Of a stretch of DNA of 64,000 bases, positions 35,008 to 48,222 are shown piece after piece. Numbering within the stretch: position 1 is the first letter of the stretch; each line of letters begins with the position of its first letter. A program made the translations under genes and the position numbers. Location: the NCBI RefSeq assembly GCF_017308015.1, contig NZ_JAFKFW010000019.1, positions 1 through 64,000 on the forward strand. Direction: 5' to 3'. A model generated the notes under the pieces. The model was not told where the DNA came from. It made no database searches and worked only from the letters and a program-made list of their open reading frames with translations. This DNA is from Allobosea sp. (GTDB lineage: Bacteria > Pseudomonadota > Alphaproteobacteria > Rhizobiales > Beijerinckiaceae).

Positions 35008-35337
35008 GAAGAAAGCCACGAACCTCGACGAGACCGGGCGGCCCGCCGCCACCTGACGCAATCCAGCAGAATAGCGGTGAGGCCCAACCCAAGGAGCGCG
35101 GCATCCGTGCCCTTGCCCCGCTCCGGAAGATGTCCTTCGATCCGACCTGCCCATCGCGGTTCCGGGAGGAGGCGATCCAGCGTGAACAGCGACACCTGGC
35201 CCGGGGCGCGGCGTCAAACCATCGGGTTGGCCAGTTGATGGGCCGCCGCGGATCATCTACCCGAGGTCGAGCGGCATCATGCCATCCAAGATGCTGCGCA
35301 ATGGCCTTTGGAGCCGTTCTGGGGCTAGCCGCATTCG
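35008..35337. other. Gap with nothing recognisable
   Basis: 330 bases between the small gene and the flavoprotein gene. No convincing open frame, RNA, palindrome or promoter was seen. Confidence 0.5.
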
Positions 35338-36546
35338 ATGCCGATCGAGCGTTACGACACTGTCATCCTGGGGGCCGGCGCTGCCGGAATGATGTGCGCT
35401 ATCCATGCCGCATCGCGCGGCGGGCGTGTTCTGATCGTCGATCACGCCAAGGCCCCCGGCGAGAAGATCCGCATTTCCGGCGGAGGCCGCTGCAACTTTA
35501 CCAATATTGGCACGAGCGCCCGCAACTTCCTGTCGAATAATCCGCACTTCGCAAAATCGGCGCTTGGCCGCTACACGCAGCACGATTTCGTCGCGCTGGT
35601 CGAGAAGCACGGCATCGCCTATCATGAAAAGACCCTCGGACAGCTCTTCTGCGATGATTCCGCCAAGGATATCATCGCCATGCTGATGGCCGAGATGGCG
35701 CACGCAGCCTGCGAGCTGCGTCTCAGGACGACCCTGGAAAGCCTCGAGCGGCTGGATGACGGCTTTGCGGTTTCGCTGGGGGGCGATGGAGCCGCAAAAA
35801 TCCGATGCCGGCAGTTTGTCGTTGCATGCGGAGGAAAATCGATCCCGAAAATGGGTGCATCCGGCCTCGGCTATCAGATTGCCGGCCAGTTTGGTCTGTC
35901 GGTGACCGAAACCCGCCCGGCCCTGGTGCCGCTGACCTTCGGCGAAGATCTTCTTACCGGCTTCCGGGACCTTGCCGGCGTCGCCGCGGATGCGCGAGTC
36001 TCGTGCGGCAGGGCCGCGTTCGATGAGGCGCTTCTGTTCACGCATCGCGGACTTTCCGGCCCGGCGATCCTGCAGATTTCATCCTATTGGCGCGAGAAGG
36101 ATCCGATCAGGATCGCGTTCCTGCCGAAGCACGATGTCTTCGCCGACCTGCGCCGGTCCCGACAGGAAAACGGGCGCAGAAGCATCGCGAACACGCTCGG
36201 CGATATTCTGCCCAAGCGATTGGCGCTGCATTTCGCGGACGCGCATGGCTGGACAGGCCCTATCGGCGATGCCAACGACAAGAAGCTTGCCGCGATCGCG
36301 TCCGCCATTCAGGGCTGGGACGTCATGCCGATCGGATCGGAAGGGTATCGAACCGCGGAAGTCACGCTTGGCGGCGTCGATACCGCCGGACTGAATTCAC
36401 GGACGATGGCGGCAAGGGCGGTCGACGGCCTGTATTTCATCGGAGAAGTGGTCGACGTCACCGGCTGGCTGGGCGGCTACAACTTCCAATGGGCATGGTC
36501 GTCGGGCTGGGCTGCAGGGACCGCCATCGCCGAACGCACTGGCTGA
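35338..36546 (+). CDS. HI0933/YhiN family flavoprotein
   Basis: 402 residues. FAD-binding Rossmann motif GAGAAGMMCAIHAA at the N-terminus, then the family signature GEKIRISGGGRCNFTN, a mid-protein ACGGKSIPKMG, and the C-terminal GEVVDVTGWLGGYNFQWAWSSG. HI0933-like proteins are conserved FAD/NAD(P)-dependent oxidoreductases of unclear physiological role. It stands alone on the plus strand, convergent with the accessory catabolic cluster. Confidence 0.93.
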   Translation: MPIERYDTVILGAGAAGMMCAIHAASRGGRVLIVDHAKAPGEKIRISGGGRCNFTNIGTSARNFLSNNPHFAKSALGRYTQHDFVALVEKHGIAYHEKTLGQLFCDDSAKDIIAMLMAEMAHAACELRLRTTLESLERLDDGFAVSLGGDGAAKIRCRQFVVACGGKSIPKMGASGLGYQIAGQFGLSVTETRPALVPLTFGEDLLTGFRDLAGVAADARVSCGRAAFDEALLFTHRGLSGPAILQISSYWREKDPIRIAFLPKHDVFADLRRSRQENGRRSIANTLGDILPKRLALHFADAHGWTGPIGDANDKKLAAIASAIQGWDVMPIGSEGYRTAEVTLGGVDTAGLNSRTMAARAVDGLYFIGEVVDVTGWLGGYNFQWAWSSGWAAGTAIAERTG

Positions 36547-36623
36547 GATGCCGCGCCGCGCAGATCACTCACCGCTGTTGCACCCGTCTCAGCCCCGGGC
36601 GGGGGAAGTTTCAGCGTCCCCAT

Positions 36624-37787
36624 CTACGACACGCCCCGCGCTGCTCCAGGCTCGAGGCGGAGAGAGGTGAATTCCGCACGCAGAGCTTCGGACTGAGCAC
36701 CGAGAGCTGGAACCCGGCCGAACTGCGGAGCCCTGTTCCCCTCGACGATCGCGGCAGGTGCGATGACATCGATCTCGCCGGCCGGGGTCGAAATCGGCAC
36801 CTTGCGCAGATGCGGGTGCCGGGACAGGTCTTCGACCGTGTTTAGCCGCCCGTATGCCAAGCCTGCCGCCTCCAACTCACGCATTGCTTCGTCGCTGGTC
36901 AGGCAGGCAAAGCGGGCACTGATGACAGCGTCGAGTGCGGCCCGGTTCCCGAGGCGCTCCATATTGTCGGCATAGCCTGTCCTGCGCGTCAGATCGGGCT
37001 GTTTCAGAAACTCTTGGCAGAAGCGGACCCATTCGCGGTCGTTCTGGACCGAGAAGATGACTTCCTTGCCGTCGGCGCAGCGATATCCGCCGTAGGGGGC
37101 CAGGGATGGGTGGTTAACGCCGGCGCGCGCGGTGTGATACCCGCTGTAATCGTGCTGGAGCACGGGAACGTTCATCCAATCGGCGATCGCATCAAACAGG
37201 GATACCTGGATACTGGCCCCCTCACCGGTCCGCTCGCGCTGGAGCAGCGCCAGAAGGATCGCGTTCAGGGCGGTCATGCCGGCGGAGATGTCGCAAACCG
37301 ATACGCCCACGCGAGCGGGGCCATGCGCAGTGCCGGTGATCGCGCAAAGCCCGGTTTCAGCCTGGACGATGAGGTCATAGGCTTTCAGATGCGAGAAGGC
37401 CCCTTCATCCCCGAACCCGGAAATGTCGCAGGTTATCAGCTTCGGAAAGCGCTCGCGCAGCTCGGCCGAACCGAACCCGAACTTGGCGATGCTGCCCGGC
37501 TTCAGATTCTGAATGAAGATGTCGGCCTGCCTGACCATCGCGTCGAGCACCGCCCGATCGTCCTGCTGTGTCAGGTCCAGGCAGATCGATTCCTTGCCGC
37601 GGTTGAGCCAGACGAAATAGGCGCTCTGTCCACGGACGAGCTTGTCATAGTTGCGCGCGAAATCGCCCTCCGGGCGCTCCACCTTGATCACCCGTGCGCC
37701 GGCATCCGCAAGCCGCGACGATGCATATGGTGCTGCAACAGCCTGCTCGACGGCGACGACCGTAATGCCTTCAAGAATTTTGGTCAT
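36624..37787 (-). CDS. CaiB/BaiF family CoA-transferase, possible mesaconate CoA-transferase
   Basis: 387 residues. Class III CoA-transferase: NRGKESICLDL, and the catalytic aspartate at about D138 in LKAYDLIVQAETG. It moves CoA between acids through an aspartyl-CoA thioester. Its ATG overlaps the stop of the methylaspartate ammonia-lyase gene (ATGA), so mesaconate is the most natural acceptor (inference; mesaconate CoA-transferases of this class are known in the methylaspartate cycle of haloarchaea). It is last in the cluster. Confidence 0.88.
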   Translation of the reverse strand: MTKILEGITVVAVEQAVAAPYASSRLADAGARVIKVERPEGDFARNYDKLVRGQSAYFVWLNRGKESICLDLTQQDDRAVLDAMVRQADIFIQNLKPGSIAKFGFGSAELRERFPKLITCDISGFGDEGAFSHLKAYDLIVQAETGLCAITGTAHGPARVGVSVCDISAGMTALNAILLALLQRERTGEGASIQVSLFDAIADWMNVPVLQHDYSGYHTARAGVNHPSLAPYGGYRCADGKEVIFSVQNDREWVRFCQEFLKQPDLTRRTGYADNMERLGNRAALDAVISARFACLTSDEAMRELEAAGLAYGRLNTVEDLSRHPHLRKVPISTPAGEIDVIAPAAIVEGNRAPQFGRVPALGAQSEALRAEFTSLRLEPGAARGVS

Positions 37788-39067
37788 AACGAGACCGCCA
37801 TGTTCGTCTTCGGAAAGCGTCGCGATCGCCGATACTCCAGCGTCGCGAGCAGGCGACTTTGTTCATTGCCGACGATCGAGATGGCCTCGTCGACGCCCAT
37901 CCCCGGCTTGGCGAGCATCATATCGGCCTGGGTCGCGACGGCGACATGCACGGCAGCCCTCGCGGACAGATCGGTTTCGGCGCAACTTCCACCGACATAG
38001 GCGCCGACGCCCTGTTCCTTGCAGAGCAGCACCGCGCGCGCGGTATCCGCGACCGATCCGACGTCGGGCATCTTGATCTGCACCAGATGAGCCGCCTTCG
38101 CTTCCGCGAACAGTTTTATATCCTCCAGCGTGTTGCAGCGCTCATCGACGACCACCTTAACGTTCGTGCCCCGCGCCTCCAGAAGGCGAACGATCTCTGC
38201 ATAGGCTTCGAGCTGAGCGGACATCGATCCGAAATCGGCAGGGCATTCGATATGGAGCCCGAAGCCGGGCACATCATCCGCGACGCGGGCCATGAAATCC
38301 GCGATCCTCGCCGCATCGAGGCCGATCTCGAGGCCGATCCAGCCATAGACATCGAAATGCAGGATCGGCCGATAGCCGGCTTCGCCGATCTCGCCGGTTC
38401 GGTTTGCGACCCATTTGACGAAGTCCCGGAAGGTGGCCCCGGACGGGCCGAACTTCTCCCGGGAATTGATCAGTCCATGGGGCAGGATATCGACCGATTT
38501 CAGGATCATCTTGTCGACGTTGATCTCGCGCGCGTCACCACTCTGCGCGAAGATCGGGACCGCCCTGGACGGAAGCGGCAGGCTGAATTCGGCGCAGACG
38601 ATTTCGGCGAGGGTTACGCCTTTGACATGCGCGGTCGCGCGCAGGAGCGCCTGGCTGACGCCGTATTCGACGGCCAGCGGAAGCCGGCGGCCAGCGTGAG
38701 GCGCGAACACCTCCGCACATGCCGCGAGGAAGCCGGACATGTCGGCGTCGAGCAGGCGAGGCACCATGACGCTGGCGATCAAGGCCTCGATAGCCTCGGG
38801 CTGGAAGAACGGGTCGCGCCCGGCCGCCCCGGAATATTGAACACTCATCATATCGCCCCAGACGATCGCGTCATCGGCCAGGACGAGGCCGATGCTCAAC
38901 GAACGCGAAGGCATCCGGATCGAGGTGAAGCCCGGTGTCAGGACCTGGCCGACATAGCAGGCGCCGTCCTGAACGGCGCCGGCACGAATAGCGGCCTGGT
39001 CGTCGTAGAAGAAGCTGCCATTGCCTCGGGCCAGGATGACATCTTTGATTTTGAATCGGCTCGTCAT
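37784..39067 (-). CDS. Methylaspartate ammonia-lyase
   Basis: 427 residues, enolase-superfamily length. Catalytic histidine in DILPHGLIN (about H197) and lysine in QIKMPDVG (about K332) correspond to His194/Lys331 of the characterised Citrobacter enzyme. Metal ligands are D239 (HFDVYG), E274 (HIECP) and D308 (VVDER). It eliminates ammonia from L-threo-3-methylaspartate to give mesaconate. No glutamate mutase (glmES), the usual source of the substrate, is nearby. Translationally coupled to the CoA-transferase. Confidence 0.93.
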   Translation of the reverse strand: MTSRFKIKDVILARGNGSFFYDDQAAIRAGAVQDGACYVGQVLTPGFTSIRMPSRSLSIGLVLADDAIVWGDMMSVQYSGAAGRDPFFQPEAIEALIASVMVPRLLDADMSGFLAACAEVFAPHAGRRLPLAVEYGVSQALLRATAHVKGVTLAEIVCAEFSLPLPSRAVPIFAQSGDAREINVDKMILKSVDILPHGLINSREKFGPSGATFRDFVKWVANRTGEIGEAGYRPILHFDVYGWIGLEIGLDAARIADFMARVADDVPGFGLHIECPADFGSMSAQLEAYAEIVRLLEARGTNVKVVVDERCNTLEDIKLFAEAKAAHLVQIKMPDVGSVADTARAVLLCKEQGVGAYVGGSCAETDLSARAAVHVAVATQADMMLAKPGMGVDEAISIVGNEQSRLLATLEYRRSRRFPKTNMAVSL

Positions 39068-39123
39068 AGCGGATGTCCGTCAGGAAGATCGGGGCGGTCG
39101 GTTCTGGGACACGGGATGCATCT

Positions 39124-40056
39124 TCAGCGTATGCTTCGGTCACCGGGAGCCGGATTCCCGTTGCCGGCCGGGCTCGCCCCGTAGCTGCGGGCCGCCGCCA
39201 GTATCTGGCAGGCGCGACGCAGCACCGGCGCATCGATCATTCTTCCATCGAGACCGACCGTGCCGGAACCGGCGCGTTGTGCAGCCTCCGCCGCTTCGAC
39301 CACCCGCGCAGCCTGCTCGATAAGGGATGACGACGGCGCGAAACCATGATTTGCGATCGCGACCTGCGCGGGATGGATGCAGAGAGTCCCGCGGAGCCCC
39401 GCCTCGCGCGAGCGACGGACGGACGCGCCATAGGCCTCGGTGTCCCTGAACTCGGTAATGGAGCCGAGAAGACCAAGCGGCCAGACATTCTTCAGGGCCG
39501 CAGCCAGCACCAGCCGATGCTTGATCGCAACGATCGTCTCGGAATCCGGCTCGCAGAGGAGATCCGCCGCCAGATCCTCGTCGCCGCAGGCCATGGCGAC
39601 GACGCGGGGAGATGACGCAATTTCTTCCATCCGCGCAACGCCGCCGGCCGTCTCGATCAGTGGCACGAGCCTGGTGTGCCCCTCGGGCAAACCGAGCCGC
39701 GCCTCGGATTCGGCAACGGCCTCGCCGATCAGGGCCAGGTGCTCGGCGCTCGATGCTTTCGCAACCACGAGCGCGCTGACCTGCGCGGAGACCGACGCTT
39801 CGATATCGCGGATGGCCAGCGGCAGCGGCCGGTTGATCCGCACGAGAACGTTTCGACCAGCCGAGCTCAGATCTGCGACCATGCCCGGAACCTGCGCCCG
39901 GGCATCCGCCTTCTGCCCGGGCAGGATCGCGTCTTCCAGGTCGATTATGATGGCATCGGCGTCAGAAATCCTGGCTTTTGCCACGAAGCGGGCCTTGTTC
40001 GCCGGAACGAACAGCAGGGAGCGCCAGAATATGGTATTATGGCACTCTAACGACAT
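39124..40056 (-). CDS. HpcH/HpaI-CitE family lyase (acyl-CoA C-C lyase)
   Basis: 310 residues. RSLLFVPANKARFVAKA, IDLEDAILPGQK and VPLIETAGGV are CitE/malyl-CoA-lyase landmarks, including the metal-binding Glu/Asp. Such enzymes split citryl-, malyl-, citramalyl- or methylmalyl-CoA. Downstream of mesaconyl-CoA hydration it would release pyruvate plus acetyl-CoA or glyoxylate plus propionyl-CoA (inference). ATG at 40056 is chosen; a tiny out-of-phase ATG-TAG frame overlaps it behind a GAGAGG site. Confidence 0.87.
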   Translation of the reverse strand: MSLECHNTIFWRSLLFVPANKARFVAKARISDADAIIIDLEDAILPGQKADARAQVPGMVADLSSAGRNVLVRINRPLPLAIRDIEASVSAQVSALVVAKASSAEHLALIGEAVAESEARLGLPEGHTRLVPLIETAGGVARMEEIASSPRVVAMACGDEDLAADLLCEPDSETIVAIKHRLVLAAALKNVWPLGLLGSITEFRDTEAYGASVRRSREAGLRGTLCIHPAQVAIANHGFAPSSSLIEQAARVVEAAEAAQRAGSGTVGLDGRMIDAPVLRRACQILAAARSYGASPAGNGNPAPGDRSIR

Positions 40057-40276
40057 CCAAACATAAATCCTCTCAAGCTGCCAACAATTGCTCAAATTAA
40101 TTTAGAATTTTGCTCTAAAATCTGATCTCTCAACAAGTAAACATGGTCATCTTCTGAATAAATACTTTATATCATTGATAACAACACTCTGAAGAAAAAG
40201 CTGTGCTCCCGCTGCGCGATATCGCTCCACGAATGCTGCACATCGATGGCGAGGCTGTTCGAGCGGCTCATGCGAC
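40057..40276 (-). promoter_or_regulatory. AT-rich promoter region of the lyase-MAL-CoA-transferase genes
   Basis: 220 bases, strikingly AT-rich between 40070 and 40200. Contains the inverted repeat TTTAGA-N7-TCTAAA at 40101-40119, about 45 bases upstream of the lyase start, suitable as an operator. It probably gives the three downstream genes their own promoter. Confidence 0.5.
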
Positions 40277-41821
40277 TTAGACCATGACTTCGATGAGGAA
40301 CGGGCCCGAACGGCGCAGACTCGCCTGCAGAAGATCGATCAGCCGCTCCGCTGTCTCGGCGCGCGCGCCTTCGACACCCATTCCCCCTGCAAGCTTGACC
40401 CAGTCGAGATCCGGGCTGCCGATATCGAGCATCGCGCGCGCCGTCTTGCCGGGATTGAGCGCCCCCACATTGATGAGCTCGCCCTCGAGGCTGGCATAGG
40501 ACCGGTTGGAGAAGATGATTGTCGTGACGTCGAGCGTTTCGCGCGCCTGAGTCCAGAGCGCCTGCAGCGTATACATTCCGCTGCCATCGGCCTGGAGGGA
40601 GATGACCTTGCGGCCGGGGCAGGCGATGGCGGCCCCGGTCGCCAGAGGCATGCCGATGCCGATGGAACCGCCATTGAGCTGCAACCAATCATGTGGCGGG
40701 GCCGAGAAGCTCGCCGGGTAGATCGCACGTCCGCAACTGATGCCCTCGTCAACGACGATCGCGCCTTCCGGAATCAGCGCAGCAATGGCCGCGCCAATGC
40801 TCTCGACGGTGATCTTCCCGGCAGGCAGCGCGGCGGGAGCTTGCGGCGGCACAAGCGCCGCCCGCCCTGGGGCATTCAGTTCGCTAGCGAGACGCGCGAG
40901 CGCATCCACACAATCCTCGGCCGGCGAGGCCAGCACGTGGGTTGAGCTGCCGGGAGGAGCGATCAGGCTGGGCATTCCCGGATAGGCAAAAAACGCCACG
41001 GGCTGCTGAACGCCGACGAGGATGATATGCTTGAACGCACTCAATTCCTGCAGGGCCAGTTGGAGCGGATAGGGCAACCGCCTGATCGGCGCCCTGCCGG
41101 CGCCACGCTCCATGCGCGGATTCGAACTTGGCGCCAGGAGCTTCGCCCCCGTGGCTGCGGCAATGCGGCTTGCGACATCGAGCGGAGCGGCGCGCAACGC
41201 CCGTCCCCCCAAGAAGATCAGTGTCGGCTCGCCGGATCTCAGGGCTTTCGCTGCGGCGGAGACCGCAGCCGCATCGACGATCCCAGCGGGCTTCACTGGA
41301 CGGGGGGCAGCCACGCCGGTCGCGTCGTTCCAGGCCGTATCGGCCGGCAGGATCAGCGTCGCGACCCCGCCGGGAGCCGACAGGGCGGCGGCGACAGCAT
41401 CGGCCCCGTCATCCGCGACGTAGCGTGCATCGGTCGATGTTCTCACCCAGTCGGACATCGGGCGAGCCACCCCTTCGACGTCCGAGGTGAGCGGCGCATC
41501 GTAGCTGCGATGATGAACCGCGTGATCTCCGACAATATTGACCAGAGGCGTCCTGGCTTTTCGGGCATTGTGGAGGTTGGCCAACGCATTGCCCAGCCCC
41601 GGCCCGAGATGCAGCAAGGTCGCTGCAGGCTTGTCGGTCATGCGGCCATAACCGTCGGCGGCACCGGATGCGACCCCTTCGAACAGCGTCAACACGCAGC
41701 GCATCCCGCCGACGCGATCCAGCGCGGCAACGAAGTGCATCTCCGATGTACCGGGATTGGCGAAACATGTGTCGACCCCGCCCTTGACCAGGGTTTGGAC
41801 CAGACTTTCAGCGCCGTTCAT
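40277..41821 (-). CDS. Thiamine-diphosphate enzyme, acetolactate-synthase-like large subunit (IlvX type)
   Basis: 514 residues. The N-terminal domain starts NGAESLVQTLVKGGVDTCFANPGTSE, with the catalytic glutamate in LTLFEGVASGAADGYGR. The C-terminal ThDP motif is QADGSGMYTLQALWTQ...FSNRSY (ADG for GDG). It is closest to short ALS-like or benzoylformate-decarboxylase-like enzymes acting on 2-oxo acids. In this cluster it could decarboxylate or ligate a 2-oxo acid released by the lyase (inference). No small regulatory subunit gene is adjacent. Confidence 0.88.
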   Translation of the reverse strand: MNGAESLVQTLVKGGVDTCFANPGTSEMHFVAALDRVGGMRCVLTLFEGVASGAADGYGRMTDKPAATLLHLGPGLGNALANLHNARKARTPLVNIVGDHAVHHRSYDAPLTSDVEGVARPMSDWVRTSTDARYVADDGADAVAAALSAPGGVATLILPADTAWNDATGVAAPRPVKPAGIVDAAAVSAAAKALRSGEPTLIFLGGRALRAAPLDVASRIAAATGAKLLAPSSNPRMERGAGRAPIRRLPYPLQLALQELSAFKHIILVGVQQPVAFFAYPGMPSLIAPPGSSTHVLASPAEDCVDALARLASELNAPGRAALVPPQAPAALPAGKITVESIGAAIAALIPEGAIVVDEGISCGRAIYPASFSAPPHDWLQLNGGSIGIGMPLATGAAIACPGRKVISLQADGSGMYTLQALWTQARETLDVTTIIFSNRSYASLEGELINVGALNPGKTARAMLDIGSPDLDWVKLAGGMGVEGARAETAERLIDLLQASLRRSGPFLIEVMV

Positions 41822-41932
41822 CTTGCGGACCCACGATCAGAAGGAATGCAGCCGGACGCCATCTCCCGAAGGGGACAGCGATGCCGTCGGCGGGAGGCGG
41901 CCAATGCCAAGCTGCCTCCCGCGCTCGCCGGC

Positions 41933-43195
41933 CTATTGGTCGGCCGACTGTGTCAGGTAGTCGTAGGAGGACAGCAGATGAACGCGCAGCACGGCGAGGT
42001 ACTCCGCTTCCGTCACGTGCTCGTCGGCACGCCCCATGGTGACCGGCGAAGGCCCGTAGAGATAAGCGGGAACATTTTCCCAGCGCCAGTAACGGCTGTC
42101 CGAACCGCCGAGCGACGACATCGGGATCGGGCGCTTGCCCGTCGCGGCCTCGGCGTTGTCGCGAATGATCGTCATCATCAGGCTTTCGGGGTCCGCCAGG
42201 CTGCCTGGATAGGAGTGGGTTGCGATCAGCTCCCATTCGGCGTCGTTCTTGGTGCAAACCTCGACGACTTCTTCATGCACCTTGTCGAAATCGATGCCGA
42301 CCGGAATGCGGATATCGATCTCCACCGAGCATTCGTGCGGAATCTGGTTGACCTTCAGCCCGCCCTTCACGACGCCTGGATTGAACGTCATGCTGCGCAC
42401 GACGTCGGCGGCGCCCGGGCCCATGCCGGCTTCCAATGTGGCGATCGCCTCAGGGGTCGTCAGCAACCGCGCAATGTTCTCCGGCAGCGTCGCCGGACGC
42501 ATGTGAAGCCGCCGGTCGAGCTCGGAGATGATCGTCGCGATGATCTTGTTGGGATTGCGGGACAGGTGCGGATAGCCGCCATGGCCCCCCGGCGCCCGAA
42601 CCGTGATCAGATATCGGCGGGTTCCCTTTTCCATGAAGCGGACATTGTTGAGCCCCGAGGGTTCGCCGTTCAGGCAGCAATCGCCGAGAACCTCATCCCG
42701 CAATGTCTCGAGCAGCCAGCGGGTGCCGAGCGCTCCGCCGGTCTGTTCGTCGGAGACGGCGGTCAGGGTGAGTTTACCGGGAAGCTTGTCCCTGATGTCG
42801 TGCAGCCAGGCGTAGGTGAGGACCGCTGCGGCCGTTCCGGCCTTCATGTCCGCCGCACCCCGGCCGAATATCTTGCCGTCACGACGATCGCCCGACCAGC
42901 CGGTCTCGTCCAAGGGCGGGAAGACATCGATATGACCATTGAGAACGAGATGCTTACCGCTGCGGCCGCCCTCGAAGGTGCCGACGACATTGGGAAGATG
43001 GGGAGCGGCCGCCTCGAAGCGCCAGGGAGCGCCGGCCTTGTCCAGATAAGCACCGATATGGTCGGCCGCCTCGGTCGTATCCCCCGGCGGGTTGGCGGAA
43101 CGGGACCGCAGGAAGCCCCGCAGAAAGGCAATGGCTTCTTCGGCGTCGGTCTCGAGACGTTGAACCAGGGCTTCGCGAACGGGATCGCTCATCAT
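41933..43195 (-). CDS. M20 family metallohydrolase (ArgE/DapE/ACY1 type)
   Basis: 420 residues. Di-zinc motifs: LNGHIDVFPP, GRGAADMKAG, and the general base region SDEQTGG, with a dimerisation lid domain beginning near GTRRYLITVRAPGGHGG. It hydrolyses N-acyl or peptide bonds of small substrates. ATG at 43195 is chosen for the AAAGGA site upstream; the frame stays open for 64 more codons. Within the island it may release the free amino acid used by the ammonia-lyase (inference). Confidence 0.88.
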   Translation of the reverse strand: MMSDPVREALVQRLETDAEEAIAFLRGFLRSRSANPPGDTTEAADHIGAYLDKAGAPWRFEAAAPHLPNVVGTFEGGRSGKHLVLNGHIDVFPPLDETGWSGDRRDGKIFGRGAADMKAGTAAAVLTYAWLHDIRDKLPGKLTLTAVSDEQTGGALGTRWLLETLRDEVLGDCCLNGEPSGLNNVRFMEKGTRRYLITVRAPGGHGGYPHLSRNPNKIIATIISELDRRLHMRPATLPENIARLLTTPEAIATLEAGMGPGAADVVRSMTFNPGVVKGGLKVNQIPHECSVEIDIRIPVGIDFDKVHEEVVEVCTKNDAEWELIATHSYPGSLADPESLMMTIIRDNAEAATGKRPIPMSSLGGSDSRYWRWENVPAYLYGPSPVTMGRADEHVTEAEYLAVLRVHLLSSYDYLTQSADQ

Positions 43196-43651
43196 GTCAT
43201 TCCTTTTGTCGTGCCGTAAAACGATCTGCGGGGGGCCGTGAATTCGCGTGCTCGCCGCAATCCGGTGATTTTCCGATATGCCGGGGGTCAGCTTCCGGTC
43301 TTCCGGTACGGCCGGGAGGACGCGAAGCTCGCAAGCATCGCTGCGATCCCCGCTTCCCGCGATCCCGTCCGGGAACTCCTTCGGCACCCGCTCGTCTCAT
43401 CGCAGACTGGGCGCTCCCCGGAGCGCCGAGGTCCGCGCCTTCCGCGATACCCAACTCGCCCAAGATCGGCTGGATAGGCGGCCTGGAGCCTCCCGGGCAA
43501 AGATGGCGCTGTCATCCGCAGGCCGCAGCAGGATGACCAGGTACCGTGAGCATCCGAGATTTGCGTCATATCCAGAGCGTTCATGATGAGTTTGAGCGGC
43601 AACAACCGGGCCTGCGGGTGACGACCGTCATCCGCAGGCCCGTCGAGTCGC
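43196..43651. other. Gap between M20 and binding-protein genes
   Basis: 456 bases. Contains a hairpin at 43608-43641 (separate entry). Open frames exist on both strands but show no recognisable domain, so I see no gene; it may be decayed sequence. Confidence 0.5.
43608..43641 (-). terminator. Hairpin after the ABC transporter genes
   Basis: GGGCCTGCGG / CCGCAGGCCC arms (10 bp) enclosing an inner TGAC-gacc-GTCA-like stem, 10 bases past the binding-protein stop on the minus strand. No U-tract follows. It may terminate or attenuate transcription between transporter and enzyme genes. Confidence 0.55.
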
Positions 43652-44491
43652 TCAGTTCAGCGGCTTGCTGTTGACCATGGGCACCGGGATGGCGTTCGCT
43701 TCCATCCCCCATTTCGCCAGGATGGCCTTGTATGTGCCGTCCGCCATGATGTCTTTCAGCGCGCCGGCAATGCCATCGCGAAGCGCAGCATCCTTCTTGG
43801 TAAAGGCCATGCCGAGCAGCGCCTCGGTGAAGGGCTTGCCGATTGCGATGAAGGTGTTCGGTTCGGTCTGGAGCATGTAGGGAACCGTCTCGCTTCCCTG
43901 CGCCGCAGCATCGATGCGCCCCTGCCGGAGCTGTGTCCTGGCATCAGCCGAGCCTTCGGTGCCGACGATCTTGATCGCAGGCTTGCCGGCGGCCTCACAA
44001 TGGGCCGCGCTCCACTTTGCGATTTCGGCCGGGAAGGTCGTGCGCCGGCTGGACCCCACCGATTTGCCGCAGAGATCCGTTTCCGACTTGATCTCGGCTG
44101 CGCGATCGGCCCGGGTATAGAACTGTGCGCCCGACGTCAGATAATTCACGAAATCGAGCGTCTCGCGCCGGCTCGGAAGATCGAACATGCCACTCATGAT
44201 CATGTCGACACGTCCGGTCGCCAGGGAGTTGAGCTGCTGCTCAAAGCCGATTTCTTCCCATTTGAGCGTCAGACCCAGCCTTTTACCGAGCGCCTCTCCG
44301 ATATCGATATCGATGCCGACGAGCTTACCCGTCTTGGTGTCCTTGAACTCCATCGGCGGATACAACGGCGCATTGGCGATGGTGATCGTCTTCCGGTCCA
44401 GTTGCGGCGCGGAAGCGCTCTGGGCAAATGCCGGCATACTCATCGACGAGAGCAGAACGCAAGCGGCGCCATAGACAGCAATTTTCATCAT
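43652..44491 (-). CDS. ABC transporter substrate-binding protein (polar amino-acid family, SBP_bac_3)
   Basis: 279 residues. Signal peptide (MKIAVYGAACVLLSSMSMPAFA) then the family-3 fold: PLYPPMEFKDTKTGKLVGIDIDI and ATGRVDMIMSGM. It would deliver an amino acid or dicarboxylate analogue to the permease. A strong AAGGAGG site precedes two adjacent ATGs; 44488 may be the true start. The ligand cannot be read, but the cluster suggests a methylaspartate-like or N-acylated substrate. Confidence 0.92.
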   Translation of the reverse strand: MMKIAVYGAACVLLSSMSMPAFAQSASAPQLDRKTITIANAPLYPPMEFKDTKTGKLVGIDIDIGEALGKRLGLTLKWEEIGFEQQLNSLATGRVDMIMSGMFDLPSRRETLDFVNYLTSGAQFYTRADRAAEIKSETDLCGKSVGSSRRTTFPAEIAKWSAAHCEAAGKPAIKIVGTEGSADARTQLRQGRIDAAAQGSETVPYMLQTEPNTFIAIGKPFTEALLGMAFTKKDAALRDGIAGALKDIMADGTYKAILAKWGMEANAIPVPMVNSKPLN

Positions 44492-44520
44492 GTTCCTCCT
44501 TGGTGAACTTGTTTTCCAGA

Positions 44521-45303
44521 TCAGGATCTGACCGCGGCGATGAACTCTCTGGTTCTCTGCTGCGCCGGATTTTCGAGCACCGCGCGCGCATCGCCGATCT
44601 CCACGATGCGGCCATGATCCATGAAGGCCACGCGATGGCCGACCTCGCGCGCGAAACCCAACTCATGCGTCACGACGATCATGGTCATGCCGCTGGCCGC
44701 GAGATCACGAATGACTTTCAGCACGTCTCCCACCAGTTCGGGATCGAGCGCCGAAGTTGGCTCGTCGAACAGGATCAGTTGCGGGCGCATCGCCAAAGCA
44801 CGCGCGATCGCCACGCGCTGCTGCTGGCCGCCCGATAGCTCGGCGGGATAGGCATCCCGCTTTGCAGCCAGGCCGACGCTGTCCAGCAAGGCGAGAGCGT
44901 GCTCGCGGGCGGCCTTGGGATTTTCGTTGAGAACACGGATAGGCCCGACAGCAATATTCTCTGCGGCCGTGAGATGCGGGAACAGGTTGAACCTCTGGAA
45001 GACCATCGCCGTCTTGCGGCGCTGGCGAGCCAGCTCAGCATCCTGCAGCGGGTAGAGCTTGTCCGCCGACCGGCGATAACCAATCATCTCCCCGTCGATA
45101 AAAATTGCCCCGCCTTCAATGCGCTCGAGCAGATTGATGCAACGCAGCAAGGTGCTCTTGCCCGAACCGGATGGGCCGATGACACACAGGACTTCGCCGC
45201 GTTCGACGGAAAGGCTGACATCCTTCAGAGCCTCGAAATGACCGAAACTCTTTTTGGCGCCGGAGACGACGACGAGAGGCTCGCCAGTTTTGGAGTGCTT
45301 CAT
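44521..45303 (-). CDS. Polar amino-acid ABC transporter ATP-binding protein
   Basis: 260 residues. Walker A GPSGSGKST, Q-loop MVFQRFNLFPHLT, signature LSGGQQQRVAIARAL, Walker B ILFDEPTSALDP and the H-loop THELGF. These are typical of GlnQ/HisP-type importers. It lies ten bases after the permease gene and 29 before the binding-protein gene. ATG at 45303 gives the standard N-terminus. Confidence 0.95.
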   Translation of the reverse strand: MKHSKTGEPLVVVSGAKKSFGHFEALKDVSLSVERGEVLCVIGPSGSGKSTLLRCINLLERIEGGAIFIDGEMIGYRRSADKLYPLQDAELARQRRKTAMVFQRFNLFPHLTAAENIAVGPIRVLNENPKAAREHALALLDSVGLAAKRDAYPAELSGGQQQRVAIARALAMRPQLILFDEPTSALDPELVGDVLKVIRDLAASGMTMIVVTHELGFAREVGHRVAFMDHGRIVEIGDARAVLENPAQQRTREFIAAVRS

Positions 45304-45313
45304 GATGCATCCA

Positions 45314-46159
45314 TCACTTCTTATGGTTGATTGGCCGGATGCCACGATCGAAATGGCGCTCAATCCAGATCTGTATCAAGCTCAGAATCGTCACGACGAT
45401 GACGTACCAGATAGCCGATACGATCAGCAGCTCGATTACACGATTATTCGCGTAGTAAACTGTTTGAGCACTATAAAGTATCTCGCTGAATTGAATAACG
45501 CTAGCCAGGGATGTAAGCTTCACCATCCCGATGAATTCGTTCCCGATTGGAGGAACAATTACACGCATTGCCTGAGGCATGATGATGTAGCGAAGCATCA
45601 TCATGCGCGTCATGCCGATCGACTGCGCTGCTTCGTATTGGCCGCGGTCGACAGAAAGCAGGCCTGCCCGAACGACCTCAGCCGTGAAGGCACCTTGCTG
45701 AATCCCAAGCCCGAGAAGAGCCGCGAGGAACGGCGTCATCACCGAAACGGTCTTGACTGAGAACAGCCCCGGAATCCCAAAATTGGGGAATATCAACGCC
45801 AGGTTGAACCAGATCAGAAGCTGCAGAAGAGCAGGGACGGCCCGAAAGAACCAGATATAACCGATCGCGACATTTCTCAGGACGAGATTGTCGGAAAGCC
45901 GCATGATGGCGAATATGACGCCGAGAGCGATGCCGACCACCATGGCGAGAATGGCCATGACGACGGTGTTCACCAACCCGGTCAATATTGCAGGGAATGT
46001 CAGAAATTCCGCGACATAGCTCCACTCGATCTGACCGACGGCAAAAGCGTGGGCGATCCCAGCGAGAGCAAGACAAATGCAGAGTACAGCAAATATTCTA
46101 CCGTAGTTCCTCGGCGTTACAATGGTTAAGCCGCTTATGTCGTAGGATGTTTTCTGCAT
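45314..46159 (-). CDS. Polar amino-acid ABC transporter permease
   Basis: 281 residues. About five transmembrane helices with the HisM-like signature (AFTAEVVRAGLLSVDRGQYEAAQSIGMT and the EAA loop). One permease gene only, so the transporter is probably a homodimeric permease. ATG at 46159 has a GGGGAGAG site. First gene of the transporter set, about 145 bases after lysR in the same orientation. Confidence 0.92.
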   Translation of the reverse strand: MQKTSYDISGLTIVTPRNYGRIFAVLCICLALAGIAHAFAVGQIEWSYVAEFLTFPAILTGLVNTVVMAILAMVVGIALGVIFAIMRLSDNLVLRNVAIGYIWFFRAVPALLQLLIWFNLALIFPNFGIPGLFSVKTVSVMTPFLAALLGLGIQQGAFTAEVVRAGLLSVDRGQYEAAQSIGMTRMMMLRYIIMPQAMRVIVPPIGNEFIGMVKLTSLASVIQFSEILYSAQTVYYANNRVIELLIVSAIWYVIVVTILSLIQIWIERHFDRGIRPINHKK

Positions 46160-46293
46160 ATCTCTCCCCGGACGGATCGGCACGAGCCGCCCAAACCAGT
46201 TACGGTTGTTCCGTACTTTCAAAAGCCGGCAGGCTCAGTTGGGGAGAGTGTCTCGATTTTTTATCTGTTCGCAAAATACGGATTCTTACTGGG

Positions 46294-46316
46294 GGGTATA
46301 GGCGCTATCTATACCC
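46294..46316. promoter_or_regulatory. Palindrome GGGTATAG-N7-CTATACCC (LysR-type operator candidate)
   Basis: Perfect 8-bp arms at 46294-46301 and 46309-46316 with a 7-base spacer. It overlaps the lysR stop codon and lies about 135 bases upstream of the permease start. Includes the A/T-rich dyad expected for LysR-type binding sites (TATAG-N7-CTATA). Confidence 0.6.
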
Positions 46317-47267
46317 TGTAACCTCCTCACTCAGACGCCCGAGCCACAGGGAGTTCCGGACAAGTTCGGCGGAAACGTCGACAGCCAGCCGTGCCACCTC
46401 GGCTGTGGCCCGCGAGCTTGTATGGAGGGGATTGTTGGCGAGGTAGATCGTGCGGCGGAGAGCGGGGTCCTGAATGGGAACGAGCATCAGATCTCCGCGT
46501 GCGACTTCACGCTGAACGGCTGTCTGCGGAAGGATCGAGAAGCCGGAGCCTCGCAGAACCAGATCCTTGATCGGGTTCAACGAGTCCATCTCGACAGCGA
46601 TATTGAACGTCAATTGATGTTCCCGCGCACAGCGGTCGATCAGCGTTCTCAGCCCATGGCTGGGACTCGGCAGGATCAACTCGAGATTCTGGCAGTCGCG
46701 GAAGGTAATAGGAACCTGGGCGACCCCCCCGGGACCGGCAGGATCCGGCCAGCAATCCGGCGCGGTGACGAGATACAACTCCTCGGTCAGGATCGGCAAC
46801 GCGTTGAGCCGCGGGTTATGGATATCGTAGAGCATCCCGAGATCGATCGACCCTTCGAGCAGCCAGCGTTCGATGTAGCCGCTCATGGCGTCCATTGCGC
46901 GAAAGCGGATTTCGGGGAACTCGATCCGGATGGTTTCCGCCAGCGGCACCGAGAGAACCATACTCACGGAACTCGGCACACCGAAGCGAACCGCTCCCCG
47001 AACCGTACGCGCCAGATTGCTCAGGTCGGCGACAAGGGTCTCGGTTGCGGTGACGATCGGCCCGCCGCGCTCAACCAGGAACTGACCGGCCTCGGTCAAG
47101 GAGACGCCCAAGGGCGACCGATGAAGCAGTTGAATGCCGAGCTCTGCTTCGAGCTTGATGATGTACTGGCTCAGCGAAGGCTGAGCAATTCCGATCGTTC
47201 GCGCGGCCGCGGAAAGGGAACCGGTTTCCGCGATGACCAGGAAGTATCGAAGCTGACGGATGTCCAT
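46305..47267 (-). CDS. LysR family transcriptional regulator
   Basis: 320 residues. N-terminal winged helix-turn-helix (MDIRQLRYFLVIAETGSLSA, AQPSLSQYIIKLEAELG) and a periplasmic-binding-like effector domain. It heads the accessory cluster in the same orientation, so it probably activates the transporter and enzyme genes with a pathway intermediate as co-inducer (inference). Confidence 0.94.
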   Translation of the reverse strand: MDIRQLRYFLVIAETGSLSAAARTIGIAQPSLSQYIIKLEAELGIQLLHRSPLGVSLTEAGQFLVERGGPIVTATETLVADLSNLARTVRGAVRFGVPSSVSMVLSVPLAETIRIEFPEIRFRAMDAMSGYIERWLLEGSIDLGMLYDIHNPRLNALPILTEELYLVTAPDCWPDPAGPGGVAQVPITFRDCQNLELILPSPSHGLRTLIDRCAREHQLTFNIAVEMDSLNPIKDLVLRGSGFSILPQTAVQREVARGDLMLVPIQDPALRRTIYLANNPLHTSSRATAEVARLAVDVSAELVRNSLWLGRLSEEVTGYR

Positions 47268-47333
47268 GTGATCAGTCCCCCATGTTTCAACGAGCTTCCG
47301 TTCGGCGACCCCGGCCAGCGCGTCCCACCCATG

Positions 47334-47798
47334 TCATGCGCCGTGGTTCCGTCTGCGCCGGCTCGGCAGCGCTGACAACCTGCAGCAGCGACGGGGATGC
47401 CCATCGCGCACGCAATGCTGGGGCACCGCAGAGCAGATGACGGCGAAAGCCCTGCCGCTGACGCCGTGCACGATGACGATCCATTCGCAATCACGGATTT
47501 GTCGCGGCGGAGAGCTGGGACCGACATAGGTATCGCCGCGCGCGCCGCCGGGAATCTTTGCGAAGCTTTTCCCATCGTGGGAAACGGTGCCGCCACCGTG
47601 GCTATAAGCCGGAGCCTGATGGTCGACCATGCAAAGGTCCAGCAACCTGGTGCCGGCAGGAATGCCGCCAACGGATACTCGCAAGTTGGTCGGAGAGAAT
47701 TTTCGCGCTTGCGGAAAGAGTGCGACCCGTCTCGGGAGCAAGCCGAGGAGCGTGCGGGCATCAGTGAATGGCACATCGGCAAGCTGGAAGGCGGCCGG
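47334..47798 (-). pseudogene. YbhB/YbcL (PEBP-like) protein, probably truncated
   Basis: A coding-like frame with PAGTRLLDLCMVD, SHGGGTVSHDG and YVGPSSPP resembles the PEBP fold (Raf-kinase-inhibitor-like proteins: ApaGT-L-v--D, GGG-V, GPCPP). The N-terminus merges at about 47800 with the antisense of an integrase remnant, and the last 40 residues do not look like the family. Best read as a decaying gene at an insertion junction. Confidence 0.45.
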
Positions 47799-47817
47799 GG
47801 CGGTCACCGAGGCCGAG

Positions 47818-47967
47818 GACGCCAGCGCCGGGCTCGACACGATCCGCGGCTCGATCGGCCATGCCCAGGCCACGACGACGGCGCGTTATTCACGCGGCGC
47901 CATCGGCAAGAGCCGCAAGGTCGCACAGGCGCGAGTCGCGCTCCGCGGCGAGCAGAACAACCACTGA
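47818..47967 (+). pseudogene. C-terminal remnant of a tyrosine recombinase (phage-type integrase)
   Basis: About 49 residues ending at 47967. The segment IRGSIGHAQATTTARYSRG contains the GH...T-TARY core with the catalytic His and Tyr of integrases. No N-terminal or Arg-box portion was found upstream. It lies 65 bases from the 3' end of tRNA-Gly, the usual place for an island integrase. Confidence 0.65.
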
Positions 47968-48032
47968 ACAGGGGTTGGGGAACGCGAATTTAGCGGCAGG
48001 CCGCCACAACATGCTGAAGCTTCAAGGGAAAT

Positions 48033-48107
48033 TGGAGCGGGCGATCGGGATCGAACCGACGACATTCAGCTTGGGAAGCTGACGTTCTACCACTGAACTA
48101 CGCCCGC
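48033..48107 (-). tRNA. tRNA-Gly (anticodon CCC)
   Basis: Minus-strand cloverleaf: acceptor arms GCGGGCG / CGCCCGC, D-arm region GTTCAGTGGTAGAAC, anticodon stem TCAGC/GCTGA with loop TTCCCAA, T-arm GGTTCGATCCC, 3' TCCA encoded. A truncated integrase is adjacent on the 3' side. Confidence 0.95.
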
Positions 48108-48222
48108 ATGCCCTCCACGCTGGCGAAGCAGCGCGCGGCAGGCCCGCGTTCATAGCGGGTCCGAAGCCGGGTGTCATCCGGGAATCGCCAGCAAGCGCGA
48201 GAGGACCGAAGCCGGTGTCCGC

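Follow-up and report, generated by a model that had tools for sequence, protein, structure and literature searches.

A genomic island around methylaspartate ammonia-lyase in Allobosea: a proposed catabolic route supplied without glutamate mutase

Background

The haloarchaeal methylaspartate cycle employs methylaspartate ammonia-lyase (MAL), a CoA-transferase and a member of the CitE-like lyase family, the combination that is also found in the locus described here. In the mesaconate pathway, as outlined in the excerpts of PMC4682846 on which we draw, mesaconase, CoA-transferase and citramalyl-CoA lyase act in this order, the class I fumarases are promiscuous, and the published clusters feed the pathway from glutamate. 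The present locus belongs to a 64,000-nucleotide stretch of DNA from Allobosea sp. (contig NZ_JAFKFW010000019.1; hereafter, the window) and is a block of nine genes that encode, in addition to MAL, a CaiB-family CoA-transferase and a CitE-like lyase, an ATP-binding cassette (ABC) importer, an M20-family hydrolase, a thiamine diphosphate (ThDP)-dependent enzyme and a LysR-type regulator. The end route that we propose for it is of a known kind; what appears to be new is the supply of 3-methylaspartate without glutamate mutase.

Results and discussion

The nine-gene block and its ammonia-lyase

Scans for open reading frames (ORFs) and protein families show nine intact ORFs at window 36624-47267, every one on the minus strand and just where an earlier note on this DNA had placed them. 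The profile scans assign the products, in the order given below, to the families CoA_transf_3, MAL, HpcH/HpaI (CitE-like), ThDP, M20, SBP_bac_3, ABC ATPase, BPD permease and LysR.

36624..37787, minus strand: CaiB/CoA-transferase family III (PF02515, 348 bits)
37784..39067, minus strand: 3-methylaspartate ammonia-lyase, MAL (TIGR01502, 598 bits; best structure matches PDB 1kko/1kcz; residues kept; single copy)
39124..40056, minus strand: CitE-like lyase (PF03328), predicted to be a (S)-citramalyl-CoA lyase
40277..41821, minus strand: ThDP-dependent enzyme, PRK07586 family (766 bits, cut-off 363)
41933..43195, minus strand: M20-family amidohydrolase (PF01546, PF07687), predicted to be an N-deacylase
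43652..44491, minus strand: periplasmic solute-binding protein (SBP) family 3 (PF00497)
44521..45303, minus strand: ABC transporter ATPase, polar amino acid type (family scans, importer relatives)
45314..46159, minus strand: ABC transporter permease, polar amino acid type (family scans, importer relatives)
46305..47267, minus strand: LysR-type regulator (PF00126, PF03466)

The TIGR01502 score of the MAL protein is twice the curated cut-off of 286 bits, and the closest solved structures are those of the Citrobacter and Clostridium MAL. In the numbering of CaMAL, the protein keeps Q73, Q172, H194, D238, E273, D307, Q329, K331, C361, L384 and M389, that is, the catalytic Lys331 and His194, the metal ligands, the substrate contacts and the methyl pocket, the sole change among the positions checked being the replacement of T360 by Ser. 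In a maximum likelihood tree of 85 rows, to which 103 had been thinned at 93% identity, the window protein belongs to a subclade of 15 rows (support 100/96), itself part of a clade of 74 rows (100/100, stem 1.13), and all five mutase-adjacent MAL rows fall outside the latter; the program warns that some branches beyond this clade are long. Serine occupies position 360 in the window protein and in 72 of the 74 clade rows, and threonine does so in all five mutase-linked rows; at position 362, the window protein has Ala and those five rows have Asn; and none of the 74 clade rows, to which the window belongs, has lost the methyl-pocket L384. The T360S variant of CaMAL has native-like kinetics and L384A loses kcat 1760-fold, as reported in the excerpted part of PMC7241714, so that Ser at 360 is no argument against the MAL reaction. 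By these features, the window protein is probably a true 3-methylaspartase.

This MAL is the single copy found in its genome. Of 397 genomes sampled across the order, 7 gave MAL matches at E 1e-20 or better, this genome included, with only divergent copies (37-39% identity) in two of the seven, and none was found in any of the 19 other same-family genomes listed. A Rhizobium sp. 007 plasmid and genomes G087 and G211 (loci L018, L023 and L024) encode five MAL-like proteins of 36-39% identity, in which Q73 and Q172 are mostly lost and the methyl-pocket Leu is partly lost; those of L024 adjoin relatives of M24 hydrolase, aminotransferase, SSADH (succinate-semialdehyde dehydrogenase) and Lrp genes. 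Perhaps, these proteins comprise a different lyase family.

Probable supply of 3-methylaspartate without glutamate mutase

The earlier note had seen no glutamate mutase in the block, and subunit E (PF06368) was not found in the Allobosea genome either, which is rated 100% complete. Of the 46 clade genomes searched, Mesorhizobium AR07 alone gave a match, a mutase-E-like gene (395 bits) on another contig, and the other 45 gave none. For this search, 47 of 80 clade loci were chosen, of which L099 dropped out, and whole genomes were scanned by subunit E only; all three mutase-bearing plasmids that served as positive controls were detected. Glutamate was, on this ground, rejected as the source of 3-methylaspartate.

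Two peptide patterns drawn from the clade, which is thus self-defined, gave 95 loci, and the best 80 of them serve as the clade loci; the mutase-bearing comparators were taken from a plasmid collection. The neighbourhood set consists of 72 loci, after 11 non-clade rows, a second copy and the window itself had been removed; 48 of the 72 have a length of 20 kb or more, some neighbours are lost beyond contig ends, and the loci, mostly from Mesorhizobium, are not independent. A neighbour was counted at no less than 40% identity over no less than 40% of the length, with reference proteins from the window, L009-L011, L016, L027, L049, L142 and other loci, such that L011, L027, L049 and the like count themselves. 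For comparison, 26 loci without MAL were fetched for their M20, ThDP or SBP genes and so are not random. Among the 72 clade loci, CaiB is present in 66, an SSADH-type dehydrogenase in 59, class I fumarase in 49, CitE in 48, a class III aminotransferase in 29 and the mutase in none; in the comparison loci, a single aminotransferase was found and CaiB, SSADH, class I fumarase, CitE and the mutase were not. When fragments are counted, CaiB directly follows MAL in 68 of the 72. The SSADH gene is upstream of MAL in 11 loci (eight from Bradyrhizobium and three from metagenome-assembled genomes) and downstream in 48, and because it is found on either side, the link between the two genes survives rearrangement; 12 clade loci have neither SSADH nor the aminotransferase.

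With no mutase found in 45 of the 46 clade genomes searched, and with these two enzymes near MAL in 59 and 29 of the 72 loci, the mutase-free supply probably points to an undescribed feeder substrate that is not made from glutamate. In public annotation, the clade MAL genes are assigned to anaerobic glutamate catabolism, a label that is probably wrong for a clade which comes mostly from legume symbionts and appears to be without the mutase. In the open-access literature, the sole mention of rhizobial MAL among the matches listed is a gene-table entry for Neorhizobium galegae (PMC4417242, in the excerpt available), and PMC11237726 has the MAL term in its reference list only. A natural compound that yields 3-methylaspartate awaits discovery, and the gene context narrows its chemistry.

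In one Mesorhizobium plasmid (L009 3744-8111 and 18164-22172), the genes around MAL include those for alanine racemase, D-Ala-D-Ala ligase, PanD, a biotin-carboxylase-like (ATP-grasp) protein and a pyridoxal phosphate (PLP) enzyme; this ATP-grasp cluster recurs in 13 loci.

The proposed end route from mesaconate

At the family level, the block encodes together two of the enzyme types of mesaconate utilisation, a CaiB-family transferase and a CitE-type lyase. The CaiB protein scores 207 bits with the succinyl-CoA:mesaconate CoA-transferase model NF041294 (cut-off 700) and hence is not that equivalog, and the CitE protein scores 146.8 bits with RipC (itaconate degradation, RipC/Ccl), below the cut-off of 375. 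The nearest CitE relatives seen, those of Mesorhizobium AR07 (63%) and Shinella L049 (60%), are both encoded a few kb from a class I fumarase. Since class I fumarase, a known mesaconase family, is near MAL in 49 of the 72 loci, mesaconate is likelier to be hydrated before CoA transfer, in which case the predicted sequence would be mesaconate, (S)-citramalate, citramalyl-CoA and, finally, acetyl-CoA and pyruvate; all the enzyme specificities after MAL are predictions. Apart from a class II FumC, the genome encodes a single class I fumarase, on contig C18; a mesaconyl-CoA hydratase is not among the nine block genes, the genome as a whole not having been searched for the MaoC type.

The earlier note had proposed a MAL-centred catabolic island, which stands, with mesaconyl-CoA as an intermediate, which probably does not: in view of the 49 loci and of the mesaconate pathway in the excerpts of PMC4682846, the action of a class I fumarase on free mesaconate is likelier. 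Nor is the MAL-CaiB-CitE core undescribed as a gene set, given that mutase-linked clusters with a fumarase-type hydratase are annotated in other alphaproteobacteria: the gene order is GlmS-GlmL-GlmE-MAL-CaiB-CitE-LysR-fumarase in Rhizobium sullae (L016) and Ensifer (L017), and GlmS-GlmE-MAL-CaiB-CitE-LysR plus a fumarase-type hydratase in Gemmobacter (L015).

AtuA and DUF4387 were considered as required partners of the route and rejected, being present in only one of the 72 clade loci. They are linked in Shinella L049, Mesorhizobium AR07 and the mutase-bearing Prevotella, where they lie near class I fumarase and CitE or MAL (L049 6905-8613, L197 38709-41531 and L212 7721-9442, respectively). 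The two AtuA/DUF4387 copies in the Allobosea genome adjoin ABC importer genes, not MAL, one of them also being near a distant CaiB-family gene (28%). Possibly, AtuA/DUF4387 is an unrecognised partner of mesaconate metabolism.

Insertion of the island

The block is not a chance assembly but a genomic island, probably horizontally acquired, because the GC content at third codon positions (GC3) is low, 0.645-0.780, in all nine genes, whereas only 4 of the other 43 genes of more than 400 bp called in the window have values of 0.78 or less, and because one congener is without the segment. Two features delimit the site.

36559..48031, no strand: genomic island, absent from one same-genus genome between the FAD-enzyme gene and tRNA-Gly(CCC)
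48033..48107, minus strand: tRNA-Gly(CCC), intact, with its 3' end at the island boundary (ARAGORN)

In blastn, window 35234-36558 corresponds to L232 15071-16390 (85%) and window 48032-48186 to L232 16407-16562 (89%), so that the flanks, 11,473 bp (approximately 11.5 kb) apart in the window, are 16 bp apart in this congener (G448). The FAD-enzyme gene (window 35338-36546) precedes the block; in G448, it adjoins tRNA-Gly(CCC), which is followed by the dCTP deaminase gene. Nine congeners were searched for an empty site, and three whose dCTP deaminase orthologue is close (89-93%) were examined; one of these three has such a site. In G451, the tRNA-Gly and the deaminase gene are kept with other DNA beyond them, and in G444, the alignment comes from the deaminase side only, in a stretch without a called tRNA; because the three congeners differ here, the insertion site is variable. 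The same tRNA-Gly(CCC) is present in L232 and L233. No attachment-site repeat was found at the island ends, and no supported integrase family match among the ORFs beside tRNA-Gly. One of these, at window 47629-47967, has a tyrosine-recombinase-like tail by eye only and was rejected as an integrase remnant (best match, E 0.38).

Importer, M20 hydrolase and ThDP enzyme

Three plasmids, one each from Chelatococcus, Shinella and Bosea, encode importers that share 53-75% identity with the importer proteins of the window, with 66-72% for the ATPase and 61-75% for the permease. A 53% permease match in Shinella L049 was discarded as a mere 19-residue piece of a 32% match. On the Chelatococcus and Shinella plasmids, the importer neighbours are genes for LysR, an ArgH-like lyase, an MmgE/PrpD protein and a polysaccharide deacetylase; on the Bosea plasmid (L105), they are genes for M20 (47% identical to the window M20), LysR and MmgE/PrpD. 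The lyase of ethylenediaminedisuccinate (EDDS) is ArgH-like. According to the excerpts of the respective papers, iminodisuccinate epimerase is an MmgE/PrpD protein (PMC7347537) and EDDS lyase makes N-substituted aspartates from fumarate (PMC12363623).

In the SBP of the window, Gly, as part of a QGSE motif, stands in place of the alpha-amine-site Asp, and the protein also has an SRR motif; both motifs occur in the Chelatococcus SBP and in one of the two Shinella SBPs, and that of Bosea has SRR with QGNE. We take this to be the position of the Asp that grips the alpha-ammonium group in amino-acid binders. Since this Asp is replaced, the ligand may be one without a free alpha-amine, in keeping with both an N-substituted aspartate and an M20 hydrolase; the idea that it also has several carboxylates is, like the rest of this reading, suggestive only. 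For the importer and M20 together, we infer uptake and deacylation of an N-substituted aspartate-type compound. The genome has a second M20 copy (46%, contig C35), and viral contigs scanned with the M20 protein yielded no relative.

The ThDP enzyme, of the PRK07586 family, bears the NCBI name acetolactate synthase large subunit, and the earlier note likewise took it for an enzyme of that kind. We rejected this role: its best solved relatives are benzoylformate decarboxylases, nothing beyond the family name ties it to acetolactate, and the neighbours of its relatives differ between genomes. A 2-oxo-acid decarboxylase or carboligase appears probable. Two more ThDP copies (70% and 54%) are encoded in the genome. 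The operon of the 70% copy includes an ABC importer and genes for an arginine-deiminase-like protein (PF02274) and an amidohydrolase-like protein, whose G207 orthologue scores 107 bits with TIGR01891, less than the 154 required; a gamma-aminobutyrate (GABA) aminotransferase gene is nearby. The nearest ThDP relatives, 67-70% identical, are found in operons of this type. This gene set is common to two other genomes, and dehydrogenases and a further amidase accompany it in the Allobosea genome only. There (L189 1678-18389), the paralogue operon is followed by genes for GABA aminotransferase, an allantoate-amidohydrolase-type M20 protein and two dehydrogenases.

Proposed route and alternatives

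Under the proposed route, the polar-amino-acid-type importer would take up an aspartate-like, probably N-substituted compound, from which M20 would strip the N-substituent, freeing 3-methylaspartate. MAL would deaminate this to mesaconate, a step for which the sequence speaks well, and the class I fumarase from contig C18, outside the island, could hydrate mesaconate to (S)-citramalate. CaiB would then move CoA onto citramalate, and CitE would split citramalyl-CoA to acetyl-CoA and pyruvate, as the known mesaconate pathway and the gene context suggest. For the ThDP enzyme, the substrate might be a 2-oxo acid, whether pyruvate or the acyl part that is released, and LysR presumably controls the unit. 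The gain would be ammonia, acetyl-CoA and pyruvate, glutamate mutase taking no part. For this route as a whole, from the acquired island and its N-substituted compound to the final products, we consider the case evenly balanced.

Several observations weigh against it. Window-type M20, ThDP, permease and SBP are present in none of the 72 clade loci at the above threshold, there being only distant relatives (permeases, 27-32%; M20 pieces, 30-31%), so that the importer, M20 and ThDP genes may serve another pathway. The earlier note had named a lack of conserved co-occurrence in other genomes as a refutation of its island; this came out by half, the full nine-gene set not having been found among the 72 loci and the MAL-CaiB pair being conserved (68 of 72). 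Of the 110 plasmids that matched the SBP and the 5 that matched M20, only 3 supply the importer context, and three further M20 plasmids examined have different neighbours. Because the window M20 (41933-43195) is without the usual C-terminal His, its deacylase activity is unsure; in addition, a Gln follows the Glu, and the subfamily has these features in part. We assume here that this His is a metal-site ligand and the Glu catalytic. The island has no class I fumarase among its nine genes, the one on C18 has no more than 30% identity with the candidate mesaconases of rhizobia, and no C5-acid genes were recognised among its called neighbours. Finally, the best matches in the genome to the rhizobial-type SSADH and aminotransferase are 37% and 48% identical, and the island has neither, so that the rhizobial pathway does not by itself describe the window unit.

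It is possible, if on balance doubtful, that two unrelated modules make up the island as a mosaic, MAL-CaiB-CitE as the end route for C5 dicarboxylates and LysR-importer-M20, perhaps with ThDP, the latter acting on another N-substituted aspartate or amino-acid derivative, which became adjacent by acquisition and not by pathway. This would agree with the absence of the window-type upper genes from the 72 MAL loci, with the ArgH-like and MmgE/PrpD genes beside the importer relatives and the M20, importer and MmgE/PrpD genes on the Bosea plasmid, all without MAL in the stretches examined, with the amidohydrolase-like operons of the nearest ThDP relatives and with the GC content of the permease gene (0.52 vs 0.60-0.66 for the other eight). 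However, the nine genes are co-directional, have low GC3 throughout and share one insertion, and MAL needs a source of 3-methylaspartate, which no other island gene offers. The order originally suggested, in which CaiB makes mesaconyl-CoA, a hydratase encoded elsewhere gives citramalyl- or methylmalyl-CoA and CitE cleaves the product, appears unlikely: the island without class I fumarase would suit it, as would the 207 bits of CaiB, although these are far below the 700 that the CoA-transferase model requires, and class I fumarase is near MAL not only in the 49 clade loci but also in the mutase-linked clusters of Rhizobium sullae and Ensifer, Gemmobacter having a more distant fumarase-type hydratase. 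It is quite improbable that MAL serves here as a C-N lyase for aspartate, plain or N-substituted, that has no 3-methyl group; two importer relatives do lie in clusters resembling those for iminodisuccinate or EDDS degradation, but the methyl-pocket L384 is kept in all 74 clade rows and fumarate would be of little use to CaiB and CitE. The ordinary route, in which glutamate is degraded via methylaspartate and the mutase is encoded elsewhere, is nearly refuted, mutase E having been found neither in the genome, rated 100% complete, nor in 45 of 46 clade genomes searched, despite the mutase-linked MAL, CaiB and CitE clusters of other alphaproteobacteria and the mutase-E-like gene on another contig of Mesorhizobium AR07.

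Gene layout

The MAL and CaiB genes overlap by 4 bp (37784-37787), which makes their translational coupling, taken for granted earlier, plausible only. Likely start codons are at 40056 for CitE, 45303 for the ATPase and 46159 for the permease, whose relatives align starting at residue 20-23 of the longer permease ORF. For M20, a start at 43195 is more probable than one at 43387, since the family matches begin 72-86 residues into the longer ORF and the relatives fit the shorter form. With gaps of 456 bp between the M20 start and the SBP end and of 220 bp between the CitE start and the ThDP end, the nine co-directional genes need not share one transcript; neither promoter-like sites (2 found vs 2.7 expected) nor terminator-like sites (3 vs 8.1) are in excess over chance in the block. 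The LysR protein is only 31-33% identical to those of MAL clusters.

Candidate feeder substrates in rhizobial relatives

In Bradyrhizobium Tv2a-2 (L027), MAL-CaiB is preceded by genes for a DoeA-like M24 protein, an M20D amidohydrolase, Lrp, an aminotransferase and a dehydrogenase. DoeA is the best model for the M24 protein (423 bits, cut-off 613); the M20D protein scores 315 bits with DoeB2 (cut-off 550) and higher, 349 bits, with CpsA, also below its cut-off. Hence these neighbours look like relatives of ectoine enzymes, by which an ectoine function is not implied, and the context is that of a minority: M24 hydrolases like one of three references are found in 6 of the 72 clade loci, and M20D also in 6. 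Neighbours that resemble ectoine breakdown genes occur in some loci of Bradyrhizobium and of Mesorhizobium. The aminotransferase recurs, at about 88% identity, on Rhizobium and Sinorhizobium plasmids, mostly of nodule or legume isolates among the matches listed. On two such plasmids, the gene is accompanied by those for M24 hydrolases, aldehyde dehydrogenase and CoA-transferase, to which R. tropici adds M20, EutB, EutC and thiolase, with no MAL annotated in the stretches examined; on a third, from R. leguminosarum, Lrp, aminotransferase and aldehyde dehydrogenase are together. The ectoine-like M24, aminotransferase and aldehyde dehydrogenase genes of the first two plasmids (L214 11881-26314 and L215 5247-30805) make up an unassigned catabolic cluster.

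We would entertain, as a speculative and rather unlikely generalization, that in rhizobia and some other alphaproteobacteria MAL is the end module for an undescribed compound that yields 3-methylaspartate without the mutase, and that the window genome acquired this module with an importer and M20 entry for an N-substituted 3-methylaspartate. If so, the substrate could be a C-methylated compound of the ectoine or 2,4-diaminobutyrate type, degraded via 3-methylaspartate semialdehyde; the one search with methylated-ectoine terms matched no open-access paper.

Comparison with known systems

The haloarchaeal cycle (PMC5592240, from the excerpted text) is assimilatory, not catabolic, and, unlike it, the window block has neither the mutase nor mesaconyl-CoA hydratase; the CaiB protein also falls short of NF041294, the model for the CoA-transferase of that cycle. 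The methylaspartate glutamate pathway with mesaconase, in clostridia and the fumD cluster of E. coli O157, resembles the present case in MAL, mesaconate, the class I fumarase of the relatives and the cleavage to pyruvate and an acetyl unit; the clostridial pathway has a citramalate lyase complex, whereas the window has a CoA-transferase and a CitE-like protein (both comparisons after the excerpts of PMC4682846). In addition, the window differs in that no mutase was found in the genome, the fumarase is outside the island, and importer, M20 and ThDP genes are present.

The Shinella and Chelatococcus clusters of importer, ArgH and MmgE/PrpD genes, which are iminodisuccinate/EDDS-like, share importer proteins 55-75% identical to those of the window; unlike the window, they have no MAL, CaiB, CitE or ThDP annotated in the stretches examined, and, conversely, the Shinella ArgH-like lyase and MmgE/PrpD epimerase, used as queries, had no match within the window. 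The alphaproteobacterial mutase clusters have the same MAL-CaiB-CitE core and a LysR gene, but in that order, as opposed to CitE-MAL-CaiB in the window, with mutase genes present and with a MAL that is 42-48% identical and outside the clade of the window. The mutase-free rhizobial clusters of Mesorhizobium, Bradyrhizobium, Sinorhizobium, Microvirga and Shinella have MAL of the same clade (62-78%), in nearly all cases CaiB after MAL and, in 48 of 72, CitE; many of them include SSADH, class I fumarase, class III aminotransferase and Lrp genes, in place of which the window has M20, ThDP and another importer.

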